From positions 1-64,000 of the forward strand of contig CACVBU010001025.1 in the NCBI GenBank assembly GCA_902728285.1: DNA of 64,000 nucleotides, read 5' to 3'. The translations under genes were made by a program, and so were the position numbers. The notes beneath the pieces were generated by a model, which worked only from the letters and a program-made list of their open reading frames with translations, was not told the DNA's origin and did not search any database. Source of the DNA: Clytia hemisphaerica (taxonomy: Eukaryota; Cnidaria; Hydrozoa; Leptothecata; Clytiidae). Below are positions 4,466 through 44,561 of the stretch, in pieces. Within the stretch, counting starts at the first letter, position 1, and every line of letters begins with the position of its first letter.

Positions 4466-5869
4466 TGTCTGTCTACCATGGTGTTGCATTACTTGAACAT
4501 GAATTTTCAGTTTTGAAACTTTCAGAAAAACAATTTTTTGCCATTCATTTAGCAACTTGCATCACTTTTTGATTTTACTTATATGGACAGTGATACAATT
4601 GTTTCGTCGGTAATATCAGAATCATAAAAAACAAACAAACAAAGGGCCTGAGTTCGAGTTTTTTTTAAGGTTTATTATTCGGTGAGAACTAGGTTTGCAT
4701 GCAAAGTTCCGACATCGCTAAGAAGAGATTTTAAAGAAAATTTTCGTGATTTTGGGACTCTTTAAAGAGCTTCTTCGGGTGACTTAATGCATGTCTCAAA
4801 AACTTAACAATCTATCCTCACTTTTCGAGTTCAATAGCAGCCATATTCATAGATTCACGTTATAATCTGATCGAATTAGATGACGTCATGAATCGTAAAA
4901 TCGCTAACTAAAATTTCATAAGTGAATGCCTGAAAATAGGTACTGTGAAAAGCACAGGTCAAAATCATATATTGACACTGTGCCGACGAATCGAGATTCT
5001 ATTCATCGCGAAATCAACGAAGACAAAAGTAACCATGACGACCATCCAAGATCTTGGATGAAGTTCAAAGTTGATATCTTTATTCCCGTCGTTGAAAACA
5101 CAACTAAAAATTATCATCAATGCTTTTTAAAAAGAGTCAGTGATAGGTGATAGAGAATCATAACATAAAGTCTGTCTATTATTTCGATTCAATTAAAAGT
5201 GACATTTCCATAATTAATAGTTTAGTAATTACTGTTATACATTTGGGGATCACGTAAAAGATTTCTTTCGAAAGAAACTCACTTCAATTACACTTGGAGG
5301 TTTCTGGGGAATTCGTAAATAGTAAACTACATACTGATAAAGTCTGCTAGACATTAATAAGGTAATATTTTCTCTTCATCTTTGATTCTTTCTACAGTGA
5401 TTAGATTGACACATGCGCAATAAAATTTCTATTATTGGTCTTCAGAGGTTAATATATTCTTTGAAAACTTAACCTCTGATACTCAGGGTAGAAAATAGGT
5501 GGTATTGACAGCAAATTTCAACCTCGTTCCCTGCGTATTATCAGCTTTTTGATGCTTACTGATAGCGCTAGATAATACCCAGGCGCATTGGCTGGTTTTC
5601 GAACACGTAAGATTACGTAATTCAAAAACAAAACGTCGGATTTCATTTGTTCCTGGATTTGAAACCATTGCATTGCAGTGTGACTTTGTAACGTCAGATC
5701 TTTTTATAACGTATTGTTTTGAGAAGTTCCCCCTCTGAGAGGGGGAACTAGCGCATCAGCCAACACCAGGGTATTCTCTGGCGTCTAGTAACGTAAATAA
5801 AGCCTGGAATACCCGGGCACGAGGTTGAGCAAATTTGTGATTTGTGATTTAATAATATTTAAAAAAAAT
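4466..5869. other. No gene seen; small hairpins only
   Basis: Open frames here are short and have no recognisable motif. Small inverted repeats occur, for example AGGTTAA with TTAACCT near 5447-5476, and a stem GTTCCCCCTCTGAGAGGGGG near 5727-5747. Confidence 0.35.
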
Positions 5870-15287: not shown

Positions 15288-15443
15288 TTGAAATGTTCTT
15301 TGATCTCTCACTCTCTCACTGATTTATAATTAAATCGATATTAATGAAGAAAAATGGGAAGAGAGAAAGAAAAGCATTTGACATCCCCCTAGAATCCTCC
15401 ACCCCCTAATAGATACTTTCTAACCACTCCCTAAGGTTAAAAT

Positions 15444-16220
15444 ATGAACTTTGAAGACAAAAAAGTGTTTGTTGGAAATCTACCTTTCTATACCAAAGAA
15501 GATGAGGTTCAAGACATTTTGAGACAATTTACTACAAATCTTTCCATCACTGAAATATTTATATGGAAGAATAGAAATACACCAACTAATGTTCCAACAG
15601 AGGCTGCTTTTGTAACATTACAAACTAATGAAATACGGGATGAATTGGTGAACAATTATCGCTCAAGATATCCAGACCGCTCAACAAGATTTCCTTTCCG
15701 AAATAAGCACGGCAATGAGACAAATATTTACATTACACTGTGTTATATCCAGCCAGATAAAAAATATAAAGGACCAAAATCTTTCCAGAAAACCAAAGAA
15801 ACCTCCAAAGCTGCTCCTATCTCGACACCGTTAATACAAACAAAGGATGTCAGTAAACAAGATGAGTTTATCCAAGTTAACAGCCAACAAGAAAACAATC
15901 TCTCAAATGGAAATGAACAACTTAAAAAGACTGATATAGCGAATGAAGAGAAAGCTCCATTTTCAGCACTGGACAAATTGAAATCCGAAATTGAAAAAGA
16001 GAGATGCCAGCTGTTAGAAAAGATTGACTTTTTTGAAGGCAATTTGAAAATCAAGTGTACTGGATTTTTCATGTCCCTTAAGGAACTTTCTTTGCTTCAA
16101 AAGGAATTTGAGGAACTTTCGGTATCTTTGGTCGAAAAACGAAAAGATTTAAAGAAGAAAGCGAGTGAATTTACAGAGATTTATGACCTCTATGAGCAAT
16201 TAAATAGCTCAATAATTTGA
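15444..16220 (+). CDS. RRM-type RNA-binding protein with C-terminal coiled coil
   Basis: This is a single-exon frame of 258 residues. Residues 6-102 form an RRM-like domain: KVFVGNLPF (7-15) matches the RNP2 strand, and EAAFVTLQ (53-60) sits where RNP1 should be but lacks its aromatic/basic consensus, so RNA binding may be weak or altered. Residues 105-170 are a polar linker. Residues 175-252 are heptad-like and predicted by eye as coiled coil, containing LKIKCTGFF followed by LLQKEFEEL. The last part aligns with the C-terminus of the 561-residue protein at 26553 (LKTKCPELF, then LLRLDLNKM), so the two are paralogues. This one keeps only one RRM. A weak acceptor-like site (CCACTCCCTAAG) ends 9 bases before the ATG. 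No specific RNA target or pathway can be assigned. Confidence 0.8.
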   Translation: MNFEDKKVFVGNLPFYTKEDEVQDILRQFTTNLSITEIFIWKNRNTPTNVPTEAAFVTLQTNEIRDELVNNYRSRYPDRSTRFPFRNKHGNETNIYITLCYIQPDKKYKGPKSFQKTKETSKAAPISTPLIQTKDVSKQDEFIQVNSQQENNLSNGNEQLKKTDIANEEKAPFSALDKLKSEIEKERCQLLEKIDFFEGNLKIKCTGFFMSLKELSLLQKEFEELSVSLVEKRKDLKKKASEFTEIYDLYEQLNSSII

Positions 16221-17021: not shown

Positions 17022-18586
17022 GATCGGCTAAAGCGGGTAAAAGACCGGTCTCATAGCCGGCGAAGTGAGATTTCAAGCGGCCTAACATTTTAGAAGATCG
17101 GCCATGAAGCGGCCAATGGAATTTTTCCAAGAACGGCCTCAAGGCCTCTATTAGAGTCTTTTTCTTGATCGAGAGACCGGCCAGCAGCCTATTTAGCGGC
17201 CTTCTTTAGGGATCTTCTCAAAAATATAATCGATTTTCGTTTATGAAGTTCGATTAATGATTCGGCTATTTAATTTCCTATAGTCAATTATTTTTAATCC
17301 CCCATATTCGATTATTTAAATCCTTGTATTTGATTAATTAATCCTTTTTCGCTTATATCTTAGGGATCTTCTCAAATATATAACCGAATTTCGGTTAAAT
17401 GGTTTTTGTTAAATTCGGCTGTTTAACCTAATCGCTTCGGTAGAAAGTTTAACTAAATCCGGTAAAAGTAATTATTGGATTCGGCTTAAGCTTGTGGAAT
17501 TCAGTTAAAGTTTTACCAAATTTTGGCTATAAAGATTACATTACATTGTCTAAAATAAAAATAGAGATTTCCACTGACTGAGACGGGGATATTGAGACTG
17601 TTCATCTAACGTTTCCAGATCATCTAAAAAGAATGACAAATAACTATTAAAAAGTGACAAAAAGAACGACAAATTTTTAAAGAACAACAAATTTCATATT
17701 TCGCCGTCCACAACCCCGATCGAAAGTGACTGTACCACCCAAAACTTTTACCAAAAATAGTGATGAAATACACTCCTTCTGAGTGTGTTCTCTTTCTTTT
17801 CACGTGATTTTCACTTTTTCTCTCTCTCGCATTCTAAAAGTTGCATCAAACATTCGAAACGTCACAGATCAGGAGCTTGTGACAAATCAGGAGCTTATAA
17901 GAAAGCAAAGTTTGCGAGATGCCCTTTTAGAAGCTTTCCCTCTCCTCTACTGGGGATTCCCCTTATTAAAAGCGGCCACAGTGAAGCGGCCACATAGTAA
18001 GTTTTAAGCCGCTAACAGCGGCCCTTAGCGGACATTAGCGGCCCTTAGCGGACATTAGCGGCCCTTATCTTTGTTTTTCAATTTACTTACATTTTCAAGT
18101 ACATTTGCAACAAAGAAACAAGAAAAAAAGAAAAAAAAAAGATAAAAGGGTGGGCGCTCAAAATAAAAAGGACCTAAGAAGCCATCAAATGTTGTAAATA
18201 AAATAAAATGATTGCTTCCGAAGCAATCATTTTATTTTATTTACAACATTTGATGGCTTCTTAGGTCCTTTTTATTTTGAGCGCCCACCCTTTTATCTTT
18301 TTTTTTTCTTTTTTTCTTGTTTCTTTGTTGCAAATGTACTTGAAAATGTAAGTAAATTGAAAAACAAAGATAAGGGCCGCTAATGTCCGCTAAGGGCCGC
18401 TAATGTCCGCTAAGGGCCGCTGTTAGCGGCTTAAAACTTACTATGTGGCCGCTTCACTGTGGCCGCTTTTAATAAGCGGCTCGCATCGGCCTTCTTCAAT
18501 ATCCGAGCGGCCCAAAAGGTAAAAAGACCTGTCGAGTAGAGGCCAAAGAAGATCGGTCTTTTTACCGATTGGACTTTTTACCGATC
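17022..18586. mobile_element. Nested element with AGCGGCC words and a long central palindrome
   Basis: Ends are imperfect inverted repeats: GATCGG then GGTAAAAGACCGG at 17022-17050, and the inverse pattern at 18551-18586. It interrupts the left terminal region of the outer element between AAAAGTC and CATGGTTTCTGCC. The word AGCGGCC and its inverse recur throughout. A diverged direct repeat (GGGATCTTCTCAAA, then ATATAA) occurs at about 17211 and 17363. Target-site duplication is not clear. No coding frame. Confidence 0.6.
17962..18476. repeat. 515-bp near-perfect palindrome
   Basis: The sequence is its own reverse complement around position 18219 (ATTGCTTC, one base, GAAGCAAT). Following both arms outward I find no mismatch from CTTATTAAAAGCGGCCAC at the left edge to its inverse at the right. 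Arms are 257 bp with a one-base loop. The arms include TAGCGGCCCTTAGCGGACAT repeats. Confidence 0.85.
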
Positions 18587-19046: not shown

Positions 19047-19052
19047 TGCATA
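19047..19052. repeat. Target-site duplication TGCATA (left)
   Basis: TGCATA immediately precedes the AGTAGTAAG terminus at 19053. The same hexamer follows the opposite terminus at 25338. Confidence 0.85.
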
Positions 19053-19103
19053 AGTAGTAAGATTTTGATGGTTCTAATTCACTGATGATTCTAATTCAAT
19101 GCC

Positions 19104-19179
19104 GAAAGTGAGTGACACTACAGAAAGTGAGTGACACTACAGAAAGTGAGTGACACTCCAGAAAGTGAGTGACTCTACG
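19104..19179 (+). repeat. Subterminal 19-bp tandem repeats (four copies)
   Basis: GAAAGTGAGTGACACTACA is repeated at 19104, 19123, 19142 and 19161, the last two with changes. A fifth, separate copy of the core lies near 19281. The mirror set is at 25211-25286. Placement just inside the terminus suggests a binding site for the element's own proteins. Confidence 0.8.
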
Positions 19180-20264
19180 TCATTTTCCCTATCGGAAACA
19201 CCCGAAAACACTGGAATTTGACCAATGAATGTTACTAAAATTGCAACACATGGGTTCAAATTCAACACCTCCAGCACTACCTAAAGTGAGTGACACTACA
19301 GAATAAGTTCTAAGTGGTAAATAATTTTCTATAAAGGCCTTTTTAGTCTAATCTTTCATAATTCATAAAAACTGAGTACATTGTTGACAATAAACAACAT
19401 ATAAAAGATTTGATATATAGGTAATTTTATCAGCAACAAGAAACATGTGCAACAATAAAAATAGAAATAGCAACAATTCTAACTAAAAAAATAACCTTAA
19501 TAAGTCTTATTTTTAATTGTAAAAGATGAATTTGGAAACGTCTTCAAGGCATTTGATTGAAGATTCTTTAAGCGTTTATTGAGCTTGGACATTTTTTGAG
19601 GTAAGCAACACTGATGCAAGTGTAAAAATCGGGTCAGGTATAAACAACTCGAGGTGTTAAAATAAAATTGCCTGATTTCTAAGCAAAACAAAATGAAATT
19701 CTCAAAATGGAAGAACAAACGAACATTAAATTTTGATGTTGAAAACGTTACTTTGATAAAGACAAGGAAGAATTTTTTATCATAACTCAACGACCCAGTG
19801 GACAACATTTGAAGTCCAAAGAAAATTCGTGAAGTAGGCTCGGAGGAGTACCCAGAGTCAATTATATTACTATTGTCCTAGCCACTGGAAACAAAGTGTG
19901 CGTAGAAGATGGTTTTTTTGAACTTCACGAAAGTTGTTAATGAAAGGGAATAAAAGATATGTAAATATTTAGGATTTTAGAATTGTTTAAATGAATGTAA
20001 AGATGCTCATTATTATACATACGAATGTATTTAATTTAATTTCTCAATAAATGAAAGAGTAAAGAATCTTATTGCGAGACTGTATGTTTTATGCTAGAAC
20101 TAGTTGAAACTCAAAACTATAATCCAAAAACCCTATGTGACACTACTTTGAGCTAAATTCGTAGAGACAATAAAAAAGAAATAAGAAAACAAAAATAATT
20201 ATTGCTTGATGGTAATATATTTCTAGCTTACAAAAACAATGTTATCATTTACAAGGATCAAATC

Positions 20265-20771
20265 TCATTCTTTCATTGCATCATTTGGAATTTGTCGATT
20301 AATTAGAAAGCGACGTTTTTCAACAGCGAAATCCAATGCTTCTTCAAAGTCCATATCTTCCTCATCTCTAACCCTTTCTAAAGTTTCCATCACAGATTTA
20401 TGTGTTTTATCCTTTTTCATTGCTCGAAGAAAAAGGATCTTGTATTTATAAATCTCATGAATTGATAAGTCAGTCTCATGACATTCGTTCAACATGCTCT
20501 CCCAAATATTAAATGTTTCTTCAACACCTTGAGATTCTTCACTATCACTGGACATGGACTCGCTGTCTGTAAAGTCCTCATCAGACTCTTCATCTTCATC
20601 TTCTTCTTCAGATTCTTCAGGGTGGGCCTTTGCAACATGTCGATTGTAATTGCTTTTATTGGAAAAGGTCTTTTCGCAATCTTCACATTCATACATCGTG
20701 TTTCTCCCGTTGATTTTAAACTCATTTAAAGAAGTAGCGCCTTTGCTTACGAATTTATATGCAAAACACAA
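20265..20771 (-). CDS. C2H2 zinc-finger protein with acidic domain (left-arm copy, intact)
   Basis: 168 residues from the first ATG, though Met26 (MYECEDCEKTF) could be the real start. One C2H2 finger: Cys29, Cys32, His45, His50 (C-x2-C-x12-H-x4-H) with the usual Phe and a hydrophobic position. Residues 52-86 are an acidic tract of Glu/Asp/Ser (EESEEEDEDEESDEDF). Residues 87-160 form a helical domain starting FNIWESMLNE and containing HEIYKYKILFLRAMKKD and DFEEALDFAVEKRRF. I recall proteins with this finger-acid-helical layout in cnidarian transposons, but the function is unknown. Single-finger DNA binding by this protein alone is unlikely. The gene lies inside the arm of the Polinton-like element and reads from the centre toward the end. 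Confidence 0.75.
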   Translation of the reverse strand: MCFAYKFVSKGATSLNEFKINGRNTMYECEDCEKTFSNKSNYNRHVAKAHPEESEEEDEDEESDEDFTDSESMSSDSEESQGVEETFNIWESMLNECHETDLSIHEIYKYKILFLRAMKKDKTHKSVMETLERVRDEEDMDFEEALDFAVEKRRFLINRQIPNDAMKE

Positions 20772-20879
20772 GAGTAATCCGATATCGGGTTTCTCTTTAG
20801 GATCCTGGTTTCTCTCTAAGATCTTTGTTTCTTCCAGATTACCTAGACTTTATTGGTCCACGTTCGTTTCTTGGTCCGG

Positions 20880-21725
20880 GACTAGCTTGAGAAATCTAGT
20901 CTTACTTGATCCTCTTTTGGGACTCGGTAGTCCTATACCTAGTCCTTGTTAGTCCTTTTTTTAGACCAACCAATTCTTATTGGTGGCTGCAAAGTAATCC
21001 TTTTTTGTGTCAACATATAGTCCTTTTTAGACTTCTATTGCGACTACCCGATTCCTGTTTCGGACTACTTAGTTTTGATAAATCCTTTTCGGAATTGGCT
21101 AATTCCTGTTTTGGATACCCAATTTAAGCTTCAGGAGTATCTAATCCTCTTTTGTATCTACATAGTCCTTTTTTAATTATCCTTAGGATTACCAGGAATA
21201 CCTAATCCTTCTTTGAAACTAACCAATCCTTATTTGGGATTGTCTAATCTAATCTTTGGGACTAACTAATCCTCATTTGGGATTGCCTAATCCCTCTTTG
21301 GGATCAACTAATCCTCATTTGGGATTACCTAATCCCTCTTTGGGATCAACTAATCCTCATTTGGGGACTAGCTTGAGAATCTAGTCTTACACGATCCTCT
21401 TTTTGGGACTGAGTAGTTCTGTACCTAGTCCTTGTTAGTCCCTTTTTTGAGACCAACCAACTCTTGTTGATGGCTGCGTAGTACTATTTGTGTCAACATA
21501 GTTCCTTTTCGGAATTGGCTAATTCATGTTTTGGATACCCAATTTAAGCTTCAAGAGTACCTAATCCTCTTTTGTGTCTACATAGTCCTAATTGTCCTTA
21601 GGATTACCGGGATTACCCAATCTTTCTTTGGGACTTACTAATCCTCATTTGGGAATATCTAATCCCTCTTTGGCGCTAACTTATCTATGTTTGGGACTGC
21701 GTGATTATAGTTAATCCCTCTTTTA
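20880..21725 (+). repeat. Internal CTAATCC / TTTGGGA subrepeats (left arm)
   Basis: Short repeats of the form CTAATCCTCATTTGGGATTR, then CCTAATCCCTCTTTGGGATC, recur with a period near 40 bp around 21230-21370. A larger duplication pairs TGGATACCCAATTTAAGC near 21112 and 21532. Mirrored in the right arm. Non-coding. Confidence 0.7.
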
Positions 21726-21879
21726 GGTTTACTTTAATCACTAGTTGGATTCTTTCTTCCAATTCACACCAAAGGTTTACTTATGGTATGTTGTTGTTGT
21801 TTTCTTTTTTGTTTTTGTTTTACTCGTACGCGTGCGTTTTTGTTTGGTGTGGGATTTTATTATTTTGTTAGTTACACCC

Positions 21880-21906
21880 GTAAGTCCCGCCAAAGGCGGG
21901 GCTTAC
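21880..21906 (+). repeat. GC-rich hairpin in the left arm
   Basis: GTAAGTCCCGCCAAAGGCGG plus GGCTTAC forms an 11-12 bp stem with a three-base loop in otherwise AT-rich DNA. It is followed by GCCCCGGGCCCC. The mirror copy is at 22480-22506. Confidence 0.7.
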
Positions 21907-21970
21907 GCCCCGGGCCCCGTCAGAAGTGCAGTGAAGGTTAACTTTAGGGATGCTATAAATCCAATCAACT

Positions 21971-22415
21971 ATTACTTTGTGATAAACACATTTGAAGCTA
22001 ATACGTTTACAGTAAAAGTCGTAACGACTACTAAGAAATTATGTCTTCAAATTACCCCTGTCCTCTTATTCCATCCCCCCGCTTTTTAGAATTTAGAAAA
22101 TTTTCCTACCCCCTGTTTATTCGGACCCCCCCCCGTCTATTCAGGAGACAAGAGTAGCTGTTCAGGAGGTGCAGAGAAAGCTTTTTTTTTGGCCGAAATC
22201 TTATGAAATACAGAAATTATATTTTCGATAAAGAGTTTGATAGAATAGTATGGTTGTTCACCAAGCACCAGGAAGATCTTTTGAAAGCGTTGAAGTCCTA
22301 CTTTCTAACCGTAGAATATGTAAATTGGATTGCACACCGATTTTAATGAAATGTTTGATAAATCGAAAAACAATCTGCAAAGGTGTTTATAACAAAGTGA
22401 TGACCTAAACGTCAA
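21971..22415. other. Central spacer of the giant inverted repeat
   Basis: Mostly unique. The innermost parts still show weak mirror similarity (ATAAACACATTTG at 21982 against inverse ATAAACACCTTTG near 22382), so the arms once extended further inward. A C-rich stretch at 22073-22140 resembles the MITE at 3579-3725. Confidence 0.6.
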
Positions 22416-25337
22416 AGTTGATTGGATTTATAGCATCCCTAAAGTTAACCTTCACTGCACTTCTGACGGGGCCCGGGGCGTAAGCCCCGCCTTTGGCGGG
22501 ACTTACGGGTGTAACTAACAAAATAATAAAATCCCACACCAAACAAAAACGCACGCGTACGAGTAAAACAAAAACAAAAAAGAAAACAACAACAACATAC
22601 CATAAGTAAACCTTTGGTGTGAATTGGAAGAAAGAATCCAACTAGTGATTAAAGTAAACCTAAAAGAGGGATTAACTATAATCACGCAGTCCCAAACATA
22701 GATAAGTTAGCGCCAAAGAGGGATTAGATATTCCCAAATGAGGATTAGTTAGTCCCAAAAAGAAAGATTGGGTAATCCCGGTAATCCTAAGGACAATTAG
22801 GACTATGTAGACACAAAAGAGGATTAGGTACTCTTGAAGCTTAAATTGGGTATCCAAAACATGAATTAGCCAATTCCGAAAAGGAACTATGTTGACACAA
22901 ATAGTACTACGCAGCCATCAACAAGAGTTGGTTGGTCTCAAAAAAGGGACTAACAAGGACTAGGTACAGAACTACTCAGTCCCAAAAAGAGGATCGTGTA
23001 AGACTAGATTCTCAAGCTAGTCCCCAAATGAGGATTAGTTGATCCCAAAGAGGGATTAGGTAATCCCAAATGAGGATTAGTTGATCCCAAAGAGGGATTA
23101 GGCAATCCCAAATGAGGATTAGTTAGTCCCAAAGATTAGATTAGACAATCCCAAATAAGGATTGGTTAGTTTCAAAGAAGGATTAGGTATTCCTGGTAAT
23201 CCTAAGGATAATTAAACTAGGACTATGTAGATACAAAAGAGGATTAGATACTCCTGAAGCTTAAATTGGGTATCCAAAACAGGAATTAGCCAATTCCGAA
23301 AAGGATTTATCAAAACTAAGTAGTCCGAAACAGGAATCGGGTAGTCGCAATAGAAGTCTAAAAAGGACTATATGTTGACACAAAAAAGGATTACTTTGCA
23401 GCCACCAATAAGAATTGGTTGGTCTAAAAAAAGGACTAACAAGGACTAGGTATAGGACTACCGAGTCCCAAAAGAGGATCAAGTAAGACTAGATTTCTCA
23501 AGCTAGTCCCGGACCAAGAAACGAACGTGGACCAATAAAGTCTAGGTAATCTGGAAGAAACAAAGATCTTAGAGAGAAACCAGGATCCTAAAGAGAAACC
23601 CGATATCGGATTACTCTTGTGTTTTGCATATAAATTCGTAAGCAAAGGCGCTACTTCTTTAAATGAGTTTAAAATCAACGGGAGAAACACGATGTATGAA
23701 TGTGAAGATTGCGAAAAGACCTTTTCCAATAAAAGCAATTACAATCGACATGTTGCAAAGGCCCACCCTGAAGAATCTGAAGAAGAAGATGAAGATGAAG
23801 AGTCTGATGAGGACTTTACAGACAGCGAGTCCATGTCCAGTGATAGTGAAGAATCTCAAGGTGTTGAAGAAACATTTAATATTTGGGAGAGCATGTTGAA
23901 CGAATGTCATGAGACTGACTTATCAATTCATGAGATTTATAAATACAAGATCCTTTTTCTTCGAGCAATGAAAAAGGATAAAAACACATAAATCTGTGAT
24001 GGAAACTTTAGAAAGGGTTAGAGATGAGGAAGATATGGACTTTGAAGAAGCATTGGATTTCGCTGTTGAAAAACGTCGCTTTCTAATTAATCGACAAATT
24101 CCAAATGATGCAATGAAAGAATGAGATTTGATCCTTGTAAATGATAACATTGTTTTTGTAAGCTAGAAATATATTACCATCAAGCAATAATTATTTTTGT
24201 TTTCTTATTTCTTTTTTATTGTCTCTACGAATTTAGCTCAAAGTAGTGTCACATAGGGTTTTTGGATTATAGTTTTGAGTTTCAACTAGTTCTAGCATAA
24301 AACATACAGTCTCGCAATAAGATTCTTTACTCTTTCATTTATTGAGAAATTAAATTAAATACATTCGTATGTATAATAATGAGCATCTTTACATTCATTT
24401 AAACAATTCTAAAATCCTAAATATTTACATATCTTTTATTCCCTTTCATTAACAACTTTCGTGAAGTTCAAAAAAAAACCATCTTCTACGCACACTTTGT
24501 TTCCAGTGGCTAGGACAATAGTAATATAATTGACTCTGGGTACTCCTCCGAGCCTACTTCACGAATTTTCTTTGGACTTCAAATGTTGTCCACTGGGTCG
24601 TTGAGTTATGATAAAAAATTCTTCCTTGTCTTTATCAAAGTAACGTTTTCAACATCAAAATTTAATGTTCGTTTGTTCTTCCATTTTGAGAATTTCATTT
24701 TGTTTTGCTTAGAAATCAGGCAATTTTATTTTAACACCTCGAGTTGTTTATACCTGACCCGATTTTTACACTTGCATCAGTGTTGCTTACCTCAAAAAAT
24801 GTCCAAGCTCAATAAACGCTTAAAGAATCTTCAATCAAATGCCTTGAAGACGTTTCCAAATTCATCTTTTACAATTAAAAATAAGACTTATTAAGGTTAT
24901 TTTTTTAGTTAGAATTGTTGCTATTTCTATTTTTATTGTTGCACATGTTTCTTGTTGCTGATAAAATTACCTATATATCAAATCTTTTATATGTTGTTAT
25001 TGTCAACAATGTACTCAGTTTTTATGAATTATGAAAGATTAGACTAAAAAGGCCTTTATAGAAAATTATTTACCACTTAGAACTTATTCTGTAGTGTCAC
25101 TCACTTTAGGTAGTGCTGGAGGTGTTGAATTTGAACCCATGTGTTGCAATTTTAGTAACATTCATTGGTCAAATTCCAGTGTTTTCGGGTGTTTCCGATA
25201 GGGAAAATGACGTAGAGTCACTCACTTTCTGGAGTGTCACTCACTTTCTGTAGTGTCACTCACTTTCTGTAGTGTCACTCACTTTCGGCATTGAATTAGA
25301 ATCATCAGTGAATTAGAACCATCAAAATCTTACTACT
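22416..25337 (-). repeat. Right arm of the Polinton-like inverted repeat
   Basis: Inverse of the left arm with high identity. Differences include a five-A run instead of four A in the zinc-finger gene (23980-23984), an AAAAAG versus AAG change near 22760, and a CTAG-type change near 23217. Confidence 0.85.
23617..24124 (+). pseudogene. Right-arm copy of the zinc-finger gene, frameshifted
   Basis: Matches the left-arm gene residue for residue up to AMKKDK. One extra A in the run 23980-23984 then shifts the frame, and translation ends at TAA after 124 residues. The original frame resumes and would end at TGA 24122-24124. The finger and acidic region are intact; about the last 45 residues of the helical domain are lost. 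It may still yield a truncated protein. Confidence 0.7.
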
Positions 25338-25343
25338 TGCATA
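25338..25343. repeat. Target-site duplication TGCATA (right)
   Basis: Exact copy of 19047-19052, directly after the CTTACTACT terminus. Confidence 0.85.
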
Positions 25344-26552: not shown

Positions 26553-28238
26553 ATGTCACAAAATGAAAATAAAATTATGATGGAAAACCTTCCAATTGGT
26601 TCAATGAAAAGTGATATTGAGAATGTCTTGAAAGGTTGGGTCAACGAAATCACAATATCAAAAATTGATTTGGTTGATAATAAAAAACGAAAATGCAAAA
26701 CAGCTTATATGACTTTATCATGCTATTCACAAGTTCAACAAATAATAGACTTTTACAGCACGAACTTTGATGACCAAGGCTTTGCATTTGAAGACGGCTT
26801 TGCTAATATTGGAATGGTCAGAGTAAAAAAATATATAGGCAAAGCCAAACCAAAAAATGAAAATGACTTGAACATAAAGCCCTTGCAAAATGAGGAAAAT
26901 GCTTCTAATCAAGACACAGAGAGATTGTTTTGCCCTACAGAGGAGGACTGGGACACTGAAACCTTTGATAACGAAAACACTCAAAACATTGCTGAGGATT
27001 CAAAATATGATGAGAATTCATCTAGTCAAACACTCATGTTTCAACAGTTACCAAACAGAACTACAAAATCAGAGGTGAAAGAGCTGATTAATCAACTCCA
27101 ACCTGAAACAAAGATAGCACATATTGATTTGAAAATAAACACTCTTCATAAGCAGAAACTAAACGCCTATGTAAGATTCGCATCCCAATCTGACTGCAAT
27201 GCCATAATGAACATTTTCCAAGAAAAGTATGGTGAAAAAGGTTACTGGTTTGTTAACCAAGGTAACAAGAGTTCTACTCTCAAACTTATGTTCTATCATG
27301 GAAAGAAAAAAGAGACCAAACAAAAAGTCGAGACAAGACAAGAGCCAAATCCAGAGAAAAAAGTCGAAGAATTCCATGTGTATTTGGAGAAAGTACCATC
27401 TCAGACAACAAATGAGGAGATAACTTCTATTTTAAACAAATGGCTACCACCCATTTTCACTGTTTCCAAGGTGGTTTACCATAAAGATGATAAACTTTTT
27501 CATGTAAAATTACCATCATGGGAAGCTTGCGACCTTTTATTGAGTCATTTCAGGGTAAACTTTCAACCCCACGGTGGGTTTGCTTTCCAAAACGCGAAAG
27601 GACGTTTCAATCTAATTGACGTAAAACGTAATGAAAGTTTCTACTCAAAATCTACAAAACAAAAGTTAACATTGCAAAATGATGCTTCAAACAACTTAGA
27701 ACTGTTAAAATGTTCATCTGTCTCCTCTTGTAATGAACTTCATGCAGAGTTGATCTGTCCATCACCTCCTTCAGTGTCGAGCAGTAATGATTGGAAATCG
27801 GTGGATATAAACCTACAAGCTGAAGAAATATCACATAATAGTGTTTCGTCTTCTTCTCAACCTTCTCGGATCTCTGGTTCACTTGATCCTTTTTTGCCGA
27901 CTAATTCAAAAGAAAATATCACTAACCATCTTTTGCAACAAGAAATAGATCAGACAGAGATTGTATTAGAGGAAAATGTATCTGGGGAATTGAACACTTT
28001 GATGTACGAGAAAGAGGAGCTGGATGATTTCCGGAAAGAGATCATGTTGCTTGAAGACGAACTTAAAACTAAATGCCCGGAACTATTCGTGTCAGAGGTT
28101 GATATGATGCTGTTACGCTTGGACTTAAATAAAATGGAAACAAAGAAGAATGAACTGTTGATAATGAAAAACAAAGCACAATCCGAGCTTGATGAACTGA
28201 GAGAACAGATAAGTTGCTTGAATGAAGGTGACGCTTGA
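26553..28238 (+). CDS. Triple RRM-like protein with C-terminal coiled coil
   Basis: This is an intronless frame of 561 residues. Three degenerate RRM-like units are visible, each opening with a short strand and an LP motif and closing with an aromatic FAF/WFV stretch. Unit 1 spans 6-95 (IMMENLPIGS), unit 2 158-250 (TLMFQQLPNRT) and unit 3 273-360 (FHVYLEKVPSQ). RNP1 is poorly conserved in all three. Residues 370-470 are Ser-rich and probably disordered. Residues 482-556 are a coiled coil that aligns with the C-terminus of the 258-residue protein at 15444 (LKTKCPELF, then LLRLDLNKM). Likely cytoplasmic or nuclear RNA binding with coiled-coil multimerisation, but this is inferred from domains only. 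The two genes lie in the same orientation on either side of the transposon nest, which suggests tandem duplication before the insertions. Confidence 0.8.
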   Translation: MSQNENKIMMENLPIGSMKSDIENVLKGWVNEITISKIDLVDNKKRKCKTAYMTLSCYSQVQQIIDFYSTNFDDQGFAFEDGFANIGMVRVKKYIGKAKPKNENDLNIKPLQNEENASNQDTERLFCPTEEDWDTETFDNENTQNIAEDSKYDENSSSQTLMFQQLPNRTTKSEVKELINQLQPETKIAHIDLKINTLHKQKLNAYVRFASQSDCNAIMNIFQEKYGEKGYWFVNQGNKSSTLKLMFYHGKKKETKQKVETRQEPNPEKKVEEFHVYLEKVPSQTTNEEITSILNKWLPPIFTVSKVVYHKDDKLFHVKLPSWEACDLLLSHFRVNFQPHGGFAFQNAKGRFNLIDVKRNESFYSKSTKQKLTLQNDASNNLELLKCSSVSSCNELHAELICPSPPSVSSSNDWKSVDINLQAEEISHNSVSSSSQPSRISGSLDPFLPTNSKENITNHLLQQEIDQTEIVLEENVSGELNTLMYEKEELDDFRKEIMLLEDELKTKCPELFVSEVDMMLLRLDLNKMETKKNELLIMKNKAQSELDELREQISCLNEGDA

Positions 28239-36207: not shown

Positions 36208-37281
36208 TCAATACATCGTGCTCGAGTTTGTCATACTCGCTAATCTGTTTTTACTTTGTCTCAGTAATCTCTTCAGTCCTTTTCTGATTTGAGGATTTTT
36301 CCAGAAGTAAACGATGGGGTTGAAGAAGGAGTTATATGAAACAGCAAGCATCGCAAAAATGTAATAATTCTGATGAGAATGAGCATCCCAAAAGTGTTCA
36401 AAGGAATCTGCAAGGTACACGATAATCCATATATTCTTCGGTGTAACGCAACAGAAATATACCACCAATAGCCAGATGACCGCTTTCGCTAGTTTGATGT
36501 GTGCTTTCTCCGTCCTCATCCTGGATTTTCGTTTCGAGTCAGCCGGTGTTTGGATCTCAGTGATGTCATCTAATGGAATATCGGTACCTGTGTTTCCACC
36601 TTTCGAGTCATCTCCGGGATCTCCTGGTGTTGTTGAGGAATCTATGATGAAAGACTCTTTACGTCGTTTGATCAACAGCAATTCTTGCGCACGTAACGCT
36701 CTAGCGATCAAAAAGTAGGATACAAACAGGATGAAAAACGGAGCGAAGAATATAACAAAAATGAAGATCAAATATGGGACCCTTCCCACCCAACGAAATG
36801 CTGGTGCACTGGCTGGAATAAGCCACGCTGCAACAATAAGTCCAACAGTCAAATGTTTGACCGATTTCTTGTCATAGAGGTTGTATTTGGTCATCAGGAT
36901 GAAACGATCAAAGGCGACCACTGCTAAAGTCAGCACTGAGGATCCTTCAAGAAAAACGGCAAAGTAAACACGTGTATAGTCGACAGGACAGTTTATCAAC
37001 CCACCAACAGCCAACACTTGATAAGCATTTATCGGGAAAACAACTAAACCGACAAGTAAATCCGATACTGCTAATGACGTCAGGATTTTGTTAGATCGGG
37101 AACGGTTGCTAGGCATCCAAAGAACGATAAGAACTAGACTGTTGGCAATAATCGTGAACACACTTCCCATGATGAAAAAGGCACCATAGATTGTCGTTGT
37201 TGGGGTAGTGAGGTCGGCCATTCGCGTTTTACATTCTCTTGTCATGGTAAGATTTGAGTGTCCTGCTACATTTGCCATCAT
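36208..37281 (-). CDS. Rhodopsin-class (class A) G-protein-coupled receptor
   Basis: This is a single-exon frame of 357 residues with seven hydrophobic segments. Class A landmarks: Asn47 in TM1 (IIANSLVLIV), LAVSD with Asp74 in TM2, Cys98 at the start of TM3, DRF at 125-127 in place of DRY, Trp153 in TM4, Pro281 in TM6, and NPIVY at 321-325 in TM7. NLT at 10-12 is a likely N-glycosylation site in the short extracellular N-terminus. Loop 3 (about 195-262) is long, polar and phospho-acceptor rich. Two class A features are missing: the TM6 CWxP Trp is Val (CVTP, 278-281), and the TM4-TM5 loop is very short and has no Cys to pair with Cys98. The nearest resemblance by eye is to the melatonin/adenosine/aminergic-like orphan receptors common in cnidarians; ligand unknown. 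Plasma-membrane receptor. The first of two adjacent Met codons is taken as start. Confidence 0.9.
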   Translation of the reverse strand: MMANVAGHSNLTMTRECKTRMADLTTPTTTIYGAFFIMGSVFTIIANSLVLIVLWMPSNRSRSNKILTSLAVSDLLVGLVVFPINAYQVLAVGGLINCPVDYTRVYFAVFLEGSSVLTLAVVAFDRFILMTKYNLYDKKSVKHLTVGLIVAAWLIPASAPAFRWVGRVPYLIFIFVIFFAPFFILFVSYFLIARALRAQELLLIKRRKESFIIDSSTTPGDPGDDSKGGNTGTDIPLDDITEIQTPADSKRKSRMRTEKAHIKLAKAVIWLLVVYFCCVTPKNIWIIVYLADSFEHFWDAHSHQNYYIFAMLAVSYNSFFNPIVYFWKNPQIRKGLKRLLRQSKNRLASMTNSSTMY

Positions 37282-38582
37282 CTCAGTCTTTGCGAATTTT
37301 TCTCTCAGCTTTTCTTCTCCTGTTAACCTCTCTGTTCAAATGTGTATAACTTCAAATGAATGCTGTCAATATTTTGAAGTATGTTTATAGCAATAACATG
37401 TAAAGTCAATTTGCTTGCCAATTAATCGAAGTAACAGCTAAAAAAGAGGGAGAGTTTGCTCTCTCCATCATGTTTTGTATTGATAAAACCGCAGCTTTAT
37501 TGACTTGGAGTCAATTTCTCAGAATTTTTCTACTACTTAAACAACTGTTAGTTTAATCAACTGAAAGTATTTATGATTGATTTTGATCAATAGTAAATTT
37601 CTCATGTATATCGCTAAAGCTAAAAGTAACGACAATCATGAGATCGAAATATGGCGAGATTTATGCAGAACTTTGATTTTTGATAATCTTTGATGACGCT
37701 GAGTGCATTCATGAACATAAAAACGACTTTGTAATTTTGTAGAAAGGACGTAGAAAGGGTGTATTCACACTGAAAGTTTCAAGCTAAGATTTTTCTCTGA
37801 AAGCTTTAAAATAATTCTTTTTTGAGATGGAATATATCGTTTTGGTCTTCATATATCAGAAAAATGAATGGTTTGGAATCATTTTTTTCATTGAAAATTT
37901 TACTATATTATAAAGTGACAAAAAAATGTTCGCCATTTTCTGATCACTTGACACGCTTATGACGTTATTTTCAACTTTTTTTAAAATAAAGATAGAACAT
38001 TTTAGAAACCTCCACCTAGCAGTTGTGGTTTGAAAGTTATCTAGGCTTAACTGAGGTAGTCTCTAAATGCAATTTTTAGTTCCGGGAAAGTAACCGTGAA
38101 AACAACTCCGGGACTGAAAGGATTAATTCGGAAAAATAAAGGCAAACACAATTTCATAATAGCTGACATACCATCCATTCAATGATTTCAAAGCCGCTGC
38201 GAAGGGAATTTGAAATATTGAGTTTCAAGCCCGAAGGGCTAGAGGCGAATCTTTAACCCTTCTCAGGCAAGAGAAATTGAAGCTACTTATTTCCCATTCA
38301 AAACGCGCATATAACGCGCCGTAATCATGACGATGGATTGTATCTAGAAGTTACTTTGTTTTGGAGGACTACATTTTTTTGAAATCTAGCGATAGATTTT
38401 ATTTTCAATCCGGCGTTTGTGTAAAAACTACGCGCGGGTGTTCTGAATGAGAAATAAGAGTGGTTTCACTTCCCATCCAGGAGTCTCGCCCTTAGCCCTT
38501 CGAAACTCGTGAAATTCTTATGGAACTGTGCGAGTTATTTTCTATGTTTTGAACAGTTTGAATGATTTTCTGAAATATCACC
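37282..38582. other. No gene seen; upstream region of the GPCR
   Basis: AT-rich, with no recognised repeat. Promoter elements for the GPCR should lie here but nothing decisive is visible. Confidence 0.3.
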
Positions 38583-39499: not shown

Positions 39500-42400
39500 T
39501 TTTTATTTTCTTATAAGCATATACTTTATAAGAATCAAATCAATAACTCTTGATAGAAGGTGATATACCTTTCGGTAATTAGTTCTTACAAAGTAAACAA
39601 AGAATGGCGAACAATATGAGCATATTTATTTTTCTTATAAGCATATACTTTATAAGAATCAACTCAATAACTCTTGATAGACGGTGATATACCTTTCGGT
39701 AATTAGTTCTTACAAAGTAAACAAGGGACAGAAAACAATATGAGCATATTTATTTTTCTTATAAGCATATACTTTATAAGAATCAAATCAATAACTCTTG
39801 ATAGAAGGTGATATACCTTTTGGTAATTAGTTCTTACAAAGTAAACAAAGGATGGCGAACAATATGAGCTTATTTATTTTTCTTATAAGCATATACTTTA
39901 TAAGAATCAACTCAATAACTCTTGATAGACGGTGATATATCTTTCGGTAATTACTTCTTACAAAGTAAACAAGGGACAGCAAACAATATGAGCATATTTA
40001 TTTTTCTTATAAGCATATACTTTATAAGAATCAACTCAATAACTCTTGATAGACGGTGATATACCTTTCGGTAATTAGTTCTTACAAAGTAAACAAGGGA
40101 CAGCAAACAATATGAGCATATTTATTTTTCTTATAAGCATATACTTTATAAGAATCAACTCAATAACTCATGATAGACGGTGATATATCTTTCGGTAATT
40201 AGTTCTTACAAAGTAAACAAAGGATGGCGACCAATATGAGCATATTTATTTTTCTTATAAGCATATACTTTATAAGAATCAACTCAATAACTCTTGATAG
40301 ACGGTGATATATCTTTCGGTAATTACTTCTTACAAAGTAAACAAGGGACAGCAAACAATATGACCATATTTATTTTTCTTATAAGCATTTTCTTTATAAG
40401 AATCAAATTAATAACTCTTGATTGAAGGCAATATATCTTTCGGTAATTAGTAATTAGAAAGTAAACAAAGGATGGCGAAAAAGATGAGCATATTTATTTT
40501 TCTTATAAGCATATACTTTATAAGAATCAACTCAATAACTCTTGATAGACGGTGATATATCTTTCGGTAATTACTTCTTACAAAGTAAACAAGGGACAGC
40601 AAACAATATGAGCTTATTTATTTTTCTTATAAGCATATACTTTATAAGAATCAACTCAATAACTCTTGATAGACGGTGATATATCTTTCGGTAATTACTT
40701 CTGACAAAGTAAACAAGGGACAGCAAACAATATGAGCATATTTATTTTTCTTATAAGCATATACTTTATAAGAATCAACTCAATAACTCTTGATAGACGG
40801 TGATATACCTTTCGGTAATTAGTTCTTACAAAGTAAACAAGGGACAGCAAACAATATGAGCATATTTATTTTTCTTATAAGCATATACTTTATAAGAATC
40901 AACTCAATAACTCATGATAGACGGTGATATATCTTTCGGTAATTAGTTCTTACAAAGTAAACAAAGGATGGCGACCAATATGAGCATATTTATTTTTCTT
41001 ATAAGCATATACTTTATAAGAATCAACTCAATAACTCTTGATAGACGGTGATATATCTTTCGGTAATTACTTCTTACAAAGTAAACAAGGGACAGCAAAC
41101 AATATGAGCATATTTATTTTTCTTATAAGCATTTTCTTTATAAGAATCAAATTAATAACTCTTGATTGAAGGCAATATATCTTTCGGTAATTAGTAATTA
41201 GAAAGTAAACAAAGGATGGCGAAAAAGATGAGCATTTATTTTCTTATAAGCATATACTTTATAAGAATCAACTCAATAACTCTTGATAGACGGTGATATA
41301 TCTTTCGGTAATTACTTCTTACAAAGTAAACAAGGGACAGCAAACAATATGAGCTTATTTATTTTTCTTATAAGCATATACTTTATAAGAATCAACTCAA
41401 TAACTCTTGATAGACGGTGATATATCTTTCGGTAATTACTACTTCTTACAAAGTAAACAAGGGACAGCAAACAATATGAGCAATATTTATTTTTCTTATA
41501 AGCATATACTTTATAAGAATCAACTCAATAACTCTTGATAGACGGGAGATACCTTTCGTAATTAGTTCTTACAAAGTAAACAAGGGACAGCAAACAATAT
41601 GAGCATATTTTATTTTTCTTATAAGCATATACTTTATAAGAATCAACTCAATAACTCATGATAGACGGTGATATATCTTTCGGTAATTAGTTCTTACAAA
41701 GTAAACAAAGGATGGCGACCAATATGAGCATATTTATTTTTCTTATAAGCATATACTTAATAAGAATCAACTCAATAACTCTTGATAGATGGTGATATAT
41801 CTTTCGGTAATTACTTCTTACAAAGTAAACAAGGGACAGCAAACAATATGAGCATATTTATTTTTCTTATAAGCATTTTCTTTATAAGAATCAAATTAAT
41901 AACTCTTGATTGAAGGCAATATATCTTTCGGTAATTAGTAATTAGAAAGTAAACAAAGGATGGCGAAAAAGATGAGCATATTTATTTTTCTTATAAGCAT
42001 ATACTTTATAAGAATCAAATCAATAACTCTTGATAGAAGGTGATATACCTTTCGGTAATTAGTTCTTACAAAGTAAACAAAGGATGGCGAACAATATGAG
42101 CTTATTTATTTTTCTTATAAGCATATACTTTATAAGAATCAACTCAATAACTCTTGATAGACGGTGATATACCTTTCGGTAATTAGTTCTTACAAAGTAA
42201 ACAAGGGACAGCAAACAATATGAGAATATTTATTTTTCTTATAAGCATATACTTTATAAGAATCAACTCAATAACTCTTGATAGACGGTGATATACCTTT
42301 CGGTAATTAGTTCTTACAAAGTAAACAAGGGACAGCAAACAATATGAGCATATTTATGGTTTTCTTATAAGCATATCTTTATAAGAATCAACTCAATAAC

Positions 42401-44561
42401 TCTGATAGACGGTGAGATATCTTTCGGTAATTAATTCTTACAAAGTAAACAAAGGATGGCGACCAATATGAGCATATTTATTTTTCTTATAAGCATATAC
42501 TTTATAAGAATCAACTCAATAACTCTTGATAGACGGTGATATATCTTTCGAATTATTCTTACAAAGTAAACAAGGGACAGCAAACAATATGAGCATATTT
42601 AATTTTTCTTATAAGCATATACTTGATAAAATCAACTCAATAACTCATGATAGACGGTGATATATCTTTCGGTAATTAGTCTTACAAGTAAACAAAGGAT
42701 GGCGACCATAGAGCATATTTATTTTCTTATAAGCATATACTTTATAAGAATCACGCAATAACTCTGATAGACGGTGATATACCTTTCGGTAATTAGTTCT
42801 TACAAAGTAACAAGGACACAAACATATGAGGCATATTTATTTTTCTTATAAGCATATACTTTATAAGAATCAACTCAATAACTCATGATAGACGGTGATA
42901 TATCTTTCGGTAATTAGTTCTTACAAAGTAAACAAAGGAGGGCGACCATATGAGCATATTATTTTTCTATATAATATACTTAATAGAATCAACTCAATAA
43001 TCTTGATAGATGGTGATATATCTTTCGGTAATTACTTCTTACAAAGTAAACAAGGGACAGCAAACAATATGAGCATATTTATTTTTCTTATAAGCATTTT
43101 CTTTATAAGAATCAAATTAATAACTCTTGATTGAAGGCAATATATCTTTCGGTAATTAGTAATTAGAAAGTAAACAAAGGATGGCGAAAAAGATGAGCAT
43201 ATTTATTTTTCTTATAAGCATATACTTTATAAGAATCAAATCAATAACTCTTGATAGAAGGTGATATACCTTTCGGTAATTAGTTCTTACAAAGTAAACA
43301 AAGGATGGCGAACAATATGAGCTTATTTATTTTTCTTATAAGCATATACTTTATAAGAATCAACTCAATAACTCTTGATAGACGGTGATATACCTTTCGG
43401 TAATTAGTTCTTACAAAGTAAACAAGGGACAGCAAACAATATGAGCATATTTATTTTTCTTATAAGCATATACTTTATAAGAATCAACTCAATAACTCTT
43501 GATAGACGGTGATATACCTTTCGGTAATTAGTTCTTACAAAGTAAACAAGGGACAGCAAACAATATGAGCATATTTATTTTTCTTATAAGCATATACTTT
43601 ATAAGAATCAACTCAATAACTCATGAAGACGGTGATATATCTTTCGGTAATAATTCTTAAAAGAACAAAGGATTGGCGACCAATATGAGCATATTTATTT
43701 TTCTATAAGCATACTTTATAAGAATCAACTCAATAACTCTTGATAGACGGTGATATATCTTTCGGTAATTACTTCTTACAAGTAAAACAAGGGACAGCAA
43801 ACAATATGAGCATATTTATTTTTCTTATAAGCATATACTTTATAAGAATCAACTCAATAACTCATGATAGACGGTGATATATCTTTCGGTAATTAGTTCT
43901 TACAAAGTAAACAAAGGATGGCGACCAATATGAGCATATTTATTTTTCTTATAAGCATATACTTATAGAGATCACTCAATAACTCGTGATAGACGGTGAT
44001 CTCTTTCGGTAATTAGTCTGACAAGTAAACAGGGACAGCAAAAGATGAGCATATTTATTTTTCTTAGAAGCATTTCTTTATAAGATCAAATTAAACTCTT
44101 GATTGAAGGCAATATATCTTTCGGTAATTAGATTGAAGTAAAAAGATGGCGAAAAAGATGAGCATATTTATTTTTCTTATAAGCATATACTTTAATAAGA
44201 ATCAAATCAATAACTCTTGATAGAAGGTGATATACCTTCGGTAATTATTTCTTACAAAGTAAACAAAGGGGCGAACATATGAGCTTTTATTTTTCTTATT
44301 AGATATACTTTATAAGAATCAACTCAATAACTCTGATAGACGGTGATACCTTTTCGTAATTAGTTCTTACAAAGTAAACAAGGGACAGCAAACAATATAG
44401 ACGGTGCATATTTTTTATGATTTCTTATAAGCATATACTTTATAAGAATCAACTCAAGAACTCATGAAACGGTGATATATCTTTCAGTAATTAATTCTTA
44501 CAAGTAAAAGGATGGCGACAATGACATATTTATTTTCTTATAAGCATATACTTTATAAGAA
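39500..44561 (+). repeat. Satellite array, about 125-bp monomer, about 40 copies
   Basis: Each monomer contains TTCTTATAAGCATATACTTT, GAATCAACTCAATAACTCTT, GGTGATATATCTTTCGGTAA and AAAGTAAACAAGGGACAGCA (or AAAGGATGGCGACCAATATG). A distinctive variant with CATTTTCTTTATAAG and TTGATTGAAGGCAATATATC occurs near 40387, 41131 and 41875, exactly 744 bp apart. This indicates a higher-order repeat of six monomers. It recurs near 43096 and 44071 with other spacings. From about 42350 onward many single-base deletions appear. No coding capacity. Confidence 0.95.

Follow-up and report, generated by a model that had tools for sequence, protein, structure and literature searches.

A probable palindromic satellite of Polintons in the genome of the hydrozoan Clytia hemisphaerica

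Introduction

Polintons, also called Mavericks, are normally about 15–20 kb long, their inverted repeats measure hundreds of bases, and their protein-primed replication is assumed mainly by analogy to adenoviruses and plasmids. In vertebrate Mavericks, the commonest end motif is reported to be (AGT)2//(ACT)2, the target duplications measure 6 bp, and the repeated end motif has been given a role in jumping back (PMC8097293). The present analysis concerns an element in a 64,000-nucleotide stretch of the Clytia hemisphaerica genome (contig CACVBU010001025.1, positions 1 to 64,000; hereafter the window), which with its 6285 bp and 2.9-kb arms falls outside the Polinton norm. Taken as a whole, the element is best explained, with good probability, as a non-autonomous palindromic satellite of Polintons. 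By sequence, it has the ends, duplications and arm content of a Polinton's right half, minus the polymerase gene; its centre is the 5' end of an ATPase gene, after which the sequence turns back on itself into an inverted copy of that half.

The element shares with Polintons the (AGT)2...(ACT)2 ends, the 6-bp duplication, an ATPase remnant, a right-end gene and the subterminal repeats of full copies in the same genome. In contrast to these, it measures 6 kb instead of 16 kb, consists almost entirely of inverted repeat, lacks PolB, integrase, protease and capsid genes, and bears a gene that was not seen in the full copies examined. Defective genomes of the snap-back or panhandle type, seen in culture with adenoviruses and further protein-primed replicators, also carry one genome end twice in inverted order and need helper proteins, whereas the present family has subfamilies and has persisted in a genome. 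A derivative that arose by deletion from the kalilo linear plasmid forms, according to the title of its description, hairpin and duplex DNA (Vierula and Bertrand 1992), and linear plasmids of the kalilo kind are described as protein-primed (PMC11071308). The kalilo derivative is, however, a fungal mitochondrial plasmid, while the present family is inherited, inserted and equipped with a selected gene. Galileo-type fold-back elements, which also have long repetitive inverted arms, include non-autonomous copies and are not known to have PolB or integrase relatives. Galileo has been classed in the P superfamily (PMC3573991).

Results

Structure of the element

The initial annotation, made from the letters of the window alone, had described an insertion of 6285 bp with AG...CT ends and a TGCATA duplication, nearly all of it made up of two inverted 2.9-kb arms. 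Both points were borne out. Read letter by letter, the insertion spans 19,053–25,337, with TGCATA repeated on both flanks and ends reading AGTAGT...ACTACT. The arms are visible in the self-comparison, in which 19,052–21,970 aligned with 25,338–22,416 at 99.69% identity over 2924 columns, the differences amounting to 3 substituted bases and 4 indels of 1–2 bases. A second repeat search recovered the arms in five main pieces, the longest of 1225 bases, with 97–100% complementarity. From the outside in, the arm comprises the end, a 19-bp array, a gene remnant, an outward-pointing gene for a 143-amino-acid (aa) protein, 21/42-bp repeats and a GC-rich inverted repeat, the last of which is contained in a stretch spanning the inner end of the left arm and part of the centre (Table 1).

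Copies, ends and subfamilies

The genome (417 Mb, 951 contigs) was searched with the outer 354 bases of the element, which yielded at least 117 matches among the best 40 of 325 candidates, many of them in +/- pairs about 3.7–8 kb apart. Other copies with these ends, for which the initial annotation had proposed to search, thus exist. Eighteen loci were fetched; since most were chosen for showing a +/- pair, the share of two-armed loci, 15 out of 19 (the window and 14 of the 18 fetched), does not represent a random sample. The longest inverted match measured 2.3–3.6 kb in 14 two-armed loci and 1.25 kb in L012. Three loci (L015, L025 and L026) had no inverted match longer than 242 bases, and L019 is cut by the edge of its stretch.

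Four subfamilies were distinguished by the identity of the arm protein: A, which includes the window element, B (approximately 92–93%), C (approximately 69%) and D (approximately 60%). All 14 A/B elements read at both ends, window included, terminate in AGTAG...CTACT, and 13 of them (the window and 12 of the 13 others) are flanked by an exact 6-bp duplication. The C-type copy on C769 also has an exact 6-bp duplication, TATAGT, with 5903 bp in between, and is a 99.3% palindrome across the 5306 bases that were compared as a single piece; the turn at its centre takes up about 40 bases. In its arms, the zinc-finger gene is accompanied by another intact gene, which encodes 195 aa. Inverted pairs of C-type ends were additionally found on C108, C128, C294, C296, C460, C659 and C793, among others.

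Searching the genome with the arm protein gave at least 136 matches among the best 150 of 311 candidates, so the copy numbers are lower bounds. For the pairing count, 106 of the 136 matches were used and merged to 105 places, while the 30 others (fragments beside or overlapping kept places, and two weak single matches on C28 and C508) were dropped. Within 10 kb of each other, 37 pairs of neighbouring arm genes were found, 36 of which are divergent, as predicted if each arm carries one gene. Unpaired copies on C649, C144, C798, C265, C300, C822 and C548, about 60–69% identical, have neither a partner among the matches listed nor a Polinton-type integrase nearby, and possibly represent single-arm elements or precursors.

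The family is thus old, amplified to dozens of places and divided into several subfamilies. The earlier proposal of a defective, snap-back-like derivative stands in that a fold-back junction lies inside the ATPase gene, as described below, and the family is more than a recent, one-off defective copy.

Full Polintons of the same genome

Full-length elements between nearly the same ends, which had also been suggested as a check, were found as Polintons of about 16.3 kb with an integrase carrying rve and chromo domains, a protease, an ATPase and pieces of PolB. When the centre of the window element was used as query, homologous frames of 216 aa were recovered on C248, C308, C792 and C856, and a shorter one on C730. 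All five loci carry the same element, nine of the ten blocks compared being 99.1–100% identical and one 96.6%. The copy on C248 extends from L027 1263 to L028 7533. The ends of the full Polintons read AGTAGTAAGATATGG, nearly the same as those of the window element, and duplications were seen in two of the three copies read (ATTGGT on C248, CTTTTG on C792); the flanking letters of a third copy, on C856, do not match, the C730 copy has damaged ends, and in the C308 copy the left end falls in N. Between the subterminal 19-bp arrays of the C248 Polinton and the window, the longest matching piece is 98.6% identical over 74 bases, with other pieces at 95–100%. As would be the case for a non-autonomous derivative, the family has ends and remnants in common with full elements of the same genome, and its copies lie at different sites with their own duplications. 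The Polinton kinship proposed earlier is accordingly upheld by the ends, the subterminal repeats and the remnants of the ATPase and right-end genes.

In the full Polintons, the integrase matched rve at E 3.6e-13 and the adenovirus-type protease was detected at E 1.3e-4, while a double-jelly-roll match was weak (E 0.05, below its cut-off) and one piece gave a weak terminase match (phrog_2666, E 9.5e-4). The polymerase is split over several frames, one of which reaches DNA_pol_B_2 (PF03175) at E 0.004 only. Polinton-type integrases with E <1e-50 were found at 19 places at least (best 111 of 369 candidates), and long DNA_pol_B_2 matches, near weaker integrase matches, on C118, C453 and C77, which belong to other Polinton lineages. 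None of the 105 arm-gene places lies within 150 kb of the 19 integrase places when the coordinates are compared by eye. A donor candidate on C285 (930,872–946,639), where C-type ends stand inverted 15.8 kb apart, was set aside, with no integrase among the matches listed (best 111 of 369). This inverted pair holds remnants of arm sequence and may consist of nested elements or a decayed donor.

Polinton-derived content and the fold-back junction

Seventeen Polinton protein queries were compared singly with 12 elements, and only three of them matched inside the elements: the N-terminal part of the ATPase, the 202-aa gene of the right end and the last piece of PolB. The ATPase part is present in 9 of 10 A/B copies. 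The right-end gene was matched in all four B copies compared, in a single A copy and in the C copy, the polymerase piece in the C-type copy alone; no piece of PolB matched the window element. The rve-type integrase had no match in the 12 elements, and from the capsid/protease/ATPase set a broken 5' part of the ATPase gene is all that is present (a protease match in L044 falls in the flank, outside the element). The earlier statement that no core replication or capsid gene is visible holds, with the ATPase remnant in the centre as an addition. Using the 195-aa protein of the C-type copy as query, a remnant of the end gene was found in all 19 A/B loci, window included, and intact homologues encode 202 aa in L032 and 195 aa in L043. 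In the B-type copy L022, a 262-aa frame near the centre (4618–5406) has a weak PHD-finger match (E 0.0064) and perhaps belongs to another mobile element.

By order and orientation, the arm content (end, end-gene remnant and promoter) fits the right half of a Polinton minus the polymerase gene. A subterminal stretch of the Polinton left end also matches the arms, at about 83% in L021 and L043, and the arm may thus hold sequence of the other end or sequence once common to both ends. Nine of ten aligned A/B centres leave the ATPase sequence at the same letter and continue, in reverse complement, with the sequence that lies upstream of that gene, which points to one fold-back event shared by both subfamilies. 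One end is thereby present a second time in inverted orientation, with the junction lying within a gene, as in snap-back derivatives. The C-type centre, which is without ATPase and turns at a GC-rich inverted repeat, suggests a separate fold-back or later reshaping.

Relationships between the arms

An arm tree was built from the outer 2250 bases of 28 arms, representing 14 of the 15 two-armed loci; L012 with its short arms was excluded, and the ends of L022 and L023 are approximate. Each arm has its partner in the same element as sister in 13 of the 14 elements. Arms diverge by 0–2.2% within elements, with 11 of the 14 at or below 1%, whereas the nearest arm of another element is 0.4–3.6% away. 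The arms of L011, for example, are 0.22% apart and at least 3.06% from all others, and those of L024 are identical to each other with the nearest other arm at 2.0%. Sister arms imply that new copies begin with two equal arms, or that the arms later convert each other. Copying through a hairpin would yield equal arms from the start, and the data fit hairpin copying and later conversion alike.

The arm gene

The 143-aa protein combines a single C2H2 zinc finger with an acidic stretch, and its C-terminal domain is predicted to be helical. Its structure model (mean predicted local distance difference test score, pLDDT, 79.6; predicted template modelling score, pTM, 0.52) gave no match at E<=0.001 in a fold search, the better of the weak matches being mostly zinc fingers. 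In protein databases, 13 relatives were found with the single sequence (149 candidates) and 71 with a profile (3028 candidates); these are mostly on short contigs, and the two that bear an organism name belong to the coral Oculina patagonica. No relative was detected in IMG/VR, whether the zinc-finger protein, its alignments or the 195-aa protein served as query, nor in phage records searched with P0001.

The ratio of non-synonymous to synonymous substitution rates (dN/dS) was 0.13–0.23 over 12 A–B pairs, 0.16–0.17 for A–C, 0.11 for B–C and, where computable, 0.12–0.15 for comparisons with D. One-sided binomial tests, covering 5 of 36 pairs, gave p values of 0.0099, 0.0086, 2.9e-4 and 1.3e-5 for four A–B pairs and 1.0e-7 for the window against C; the site counts were worked back from the dN/dS run (N capped at 350), the pairs are non-independent, and the tested A–B pairs carry few changes (12–22 each). 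Since a single fold-back junction is common to A and B, the A–B comparisons speak for selection after the satellite had formed. The arm gene is under purifying selection, which apparently continued once the fold-back had taken place. The adjoining end gene has decayed while the arm gene was kept. The earlier suggestion of one cargo gene per arm is correct as to a gene in each arm, but the gene is a conserved one of the family's own and not chance cargo.

A zinc-finger frame beside the Polinton ATPase was considered as the counterpart of the arm gene and rejected: the profile comparison aligned the finger alone (prob. 22.6). Since the profile of the C-terminal domain was also without match in the Polinton pieces, no claim is made that the arm gene corresponds to the ATPase-side gene of Polintons.

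Discussion

Proposed origin and replication

We infer that the element arose during replication, makes use of helper proteins and replicates through a hairpin. The first copy would stem from a snap-back, in which a strand being copied from one end changed template within the ATPase gene and continued on its own complement. In later rounds, the polymerase of a full Polinton would start from a protein primer at the AGTAGT ends, and the strand displaced in the process would fold into a 2.9-kb hairpin, so that both arms are copied from one. The integrase of the helper would then insert the satellite and create the 6-bp duplication.

Weighing the explanations

A number of observations weigh against a Polinton satellite that replicates in this manner. 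As to the ends, the duplication of L014 agrees at 4 of 6 letters and is not exact, the D-type copy on C273 has no exact duplication, the flanking 6 bp of the C856 Polinton do not match, and L023 is without the terminal motif, its palindrome continuing more than 550 bases past the element. As to the content, the ATPase centre was not found in L011, C769 (C-type) or C273 (D-type) in the comparison with 17 queries, L024 has lost the common junction stretch, and none of the 17 queries matches inside the D-type copy, which is linked to Polintons solely by its ends and arm gene. Among pieces of 5 full Polintons and 2.6-kb stretches next to 6 further ATPase genes, the C-terminal domain of the arm protein had no match, and there the profile of the whole protein finds polymerase N-terminal finger frames alone (E 0.005–0.03). 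One within-A pair, counted once for the window and once for L010 since these two are identical here, has a dN/dS of 1.06 on 6 changes. The arms of L009 are not sisters, those of L020 are marginal (2.15% between its own arms, 2.17% to the next arm), and arm identity could also stem from chromosomal gene conversion. Moreover, 31 of the 105 arm-gene places are unpaired and unexplained, and the split polymerase, with its poor PF03175 match, puts the helper ability of the nearest Polintons in doubt.

Part of this would be accommodated by elements that are Polinton-derived but were moved as DNA by a helper integrase or replicated by the host only, with gene conversion between the arms after insertion and without a protein-primed hairpin. 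The ends, the duplications and the likeness of the arms are all as this would have it, none of them requiring protein priming, and the non-sister arms of L009 are what partial conversion leads one to expect. Such a course is nonetheless unlikely: the fold-back junction and the AGTAGT repeats match the predictions of protein-primed copying, and the arms of most elements are closer to each other than to the nearest arm of another element. An artefact in which one arm was assembled twice as its mirror image is more improbable by far. Palindromes are prone to misassembly, and the palindrome of L023 overruns its element, but the same two-armed structure recurs at different sites with differing flanks, bounded by exact target duplications in nearly all A/B copies, and small differences separate the two arms. 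Almost as improbable is a fold-back DNA transposon of another superfamily (Galileo, TU type) that relies on a cut-and-paste transposase and has Polinton-like ends by accident. Fold-back elements do typically have long arms that contain tandem repeats, and centres that vary; here, however, the centre contains a Polinton ATPase remnant and the arms a Polinton end gene, the subterminal repeats closely match those of full Polintons, and full copies with nearly these ends encode an integrase and pieces of PolB, not a P-type transposase. Descent from another fold-back superfamily is refuted by these common genes and ends.

Implications

Literature searches, which reached few subscription papers and not Repbase, listed no title or opening of an abstract that describes a family of non-autonomous, palindromic, fold-back or miniature Polintons, which is weak evidence of absence. 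A natural family that records fold-back copying from one end, and arms that renew each other, would amount to a sequence-level record of Polinton replication, and the long retention of a single satellite gene points to a protein relevant to the movement of Polintons or to competition with them. A further-reaching proposal can be made tentatively, with confidence somewhat short of even: the elements may form a distinct class of mobile element, namely an obligately palindromic Polinton satellite with its own trans-acting zinc-finger protein, which has no counterpart in full Polintons, and with a protein-primed hairpin that keeps the arms identical. Such a class would perhaps have more than one fold-back origin, the A/B and C centres being different, and the gene family extends to corals and many environmental samples. 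The elements would then stand to Polintons as satellites do to viruses.

Feature coordinates and neighbouring sequence

Table 1. Features of the palindromic element, in window coordinates
Feature	Positions	Strand	Remarks
Left target-site duplication, TGCATA	19047-19052
Left arm, first letters AGTAGTAAG	19053-21970	+	Self-comparison, letter-by-letter reading
Subterminal tandem array, left arm	19104-19178	+	19-bp unit x3.9
Decayed remnant of Polinton right-end gene, left arm	19690-19817	+	Found with 195-aa protein query
Intact 143-aa zinc-finger gene, left arm	20265-20696	-
21/42-bp tandem repeats, inner part of left arm	21195-21365	+
Region upstream of Polinton ATPase gene	21855-22041	+	82% identical to L028 531-331
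Unique centre	21971-22415	+	445 bases
Remnant, 5' part of Polinton packaging ATPase gene	22173-22325	+	73% over aa 19-69 of query fragment
Putative fold-back junction	22377-22378		ATPase sequence left, inverted ATPase-upstream sequence right
Right arm, inverted copy, last letters CTTACTACT	22416-25337	-	Self-comparison, letter-by-letter reading
21/42-bp tandem repeats, right arm	23023-23193	-
Right-arm copy of 143-aa gene	23692-24121	+	Frameshifted by 1-base indel; open for 99 codons, 23692-23991
Decayed remnant of Polinton right-end gene, right arm	24574-24701	-	Found with 195-aa protein query
19-bp subterminal array, right arm	25212-25286	-
Right target-site duplication, TGCATA	25338-25343

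About 575 bases to the left of the element lies a perfect palindrome of 515 bp (17,962–18,476, centre 18,219), which resembles a small fold-back element. The element is flanked by two RRM-like open frames, one at 15,441–16,220, judged by eye, and one at 26,553–28,238, which matches RRM_1 weakly (E 0.005). Further along, a 124-bp unit repeated about 41 times forms a satellite array at 39,502–44,561, which stops at the single N of the window (44,562). A receptor gene at 36,211–37,335 has its closest named match, at 45%, in Clytia hemisphaerica.

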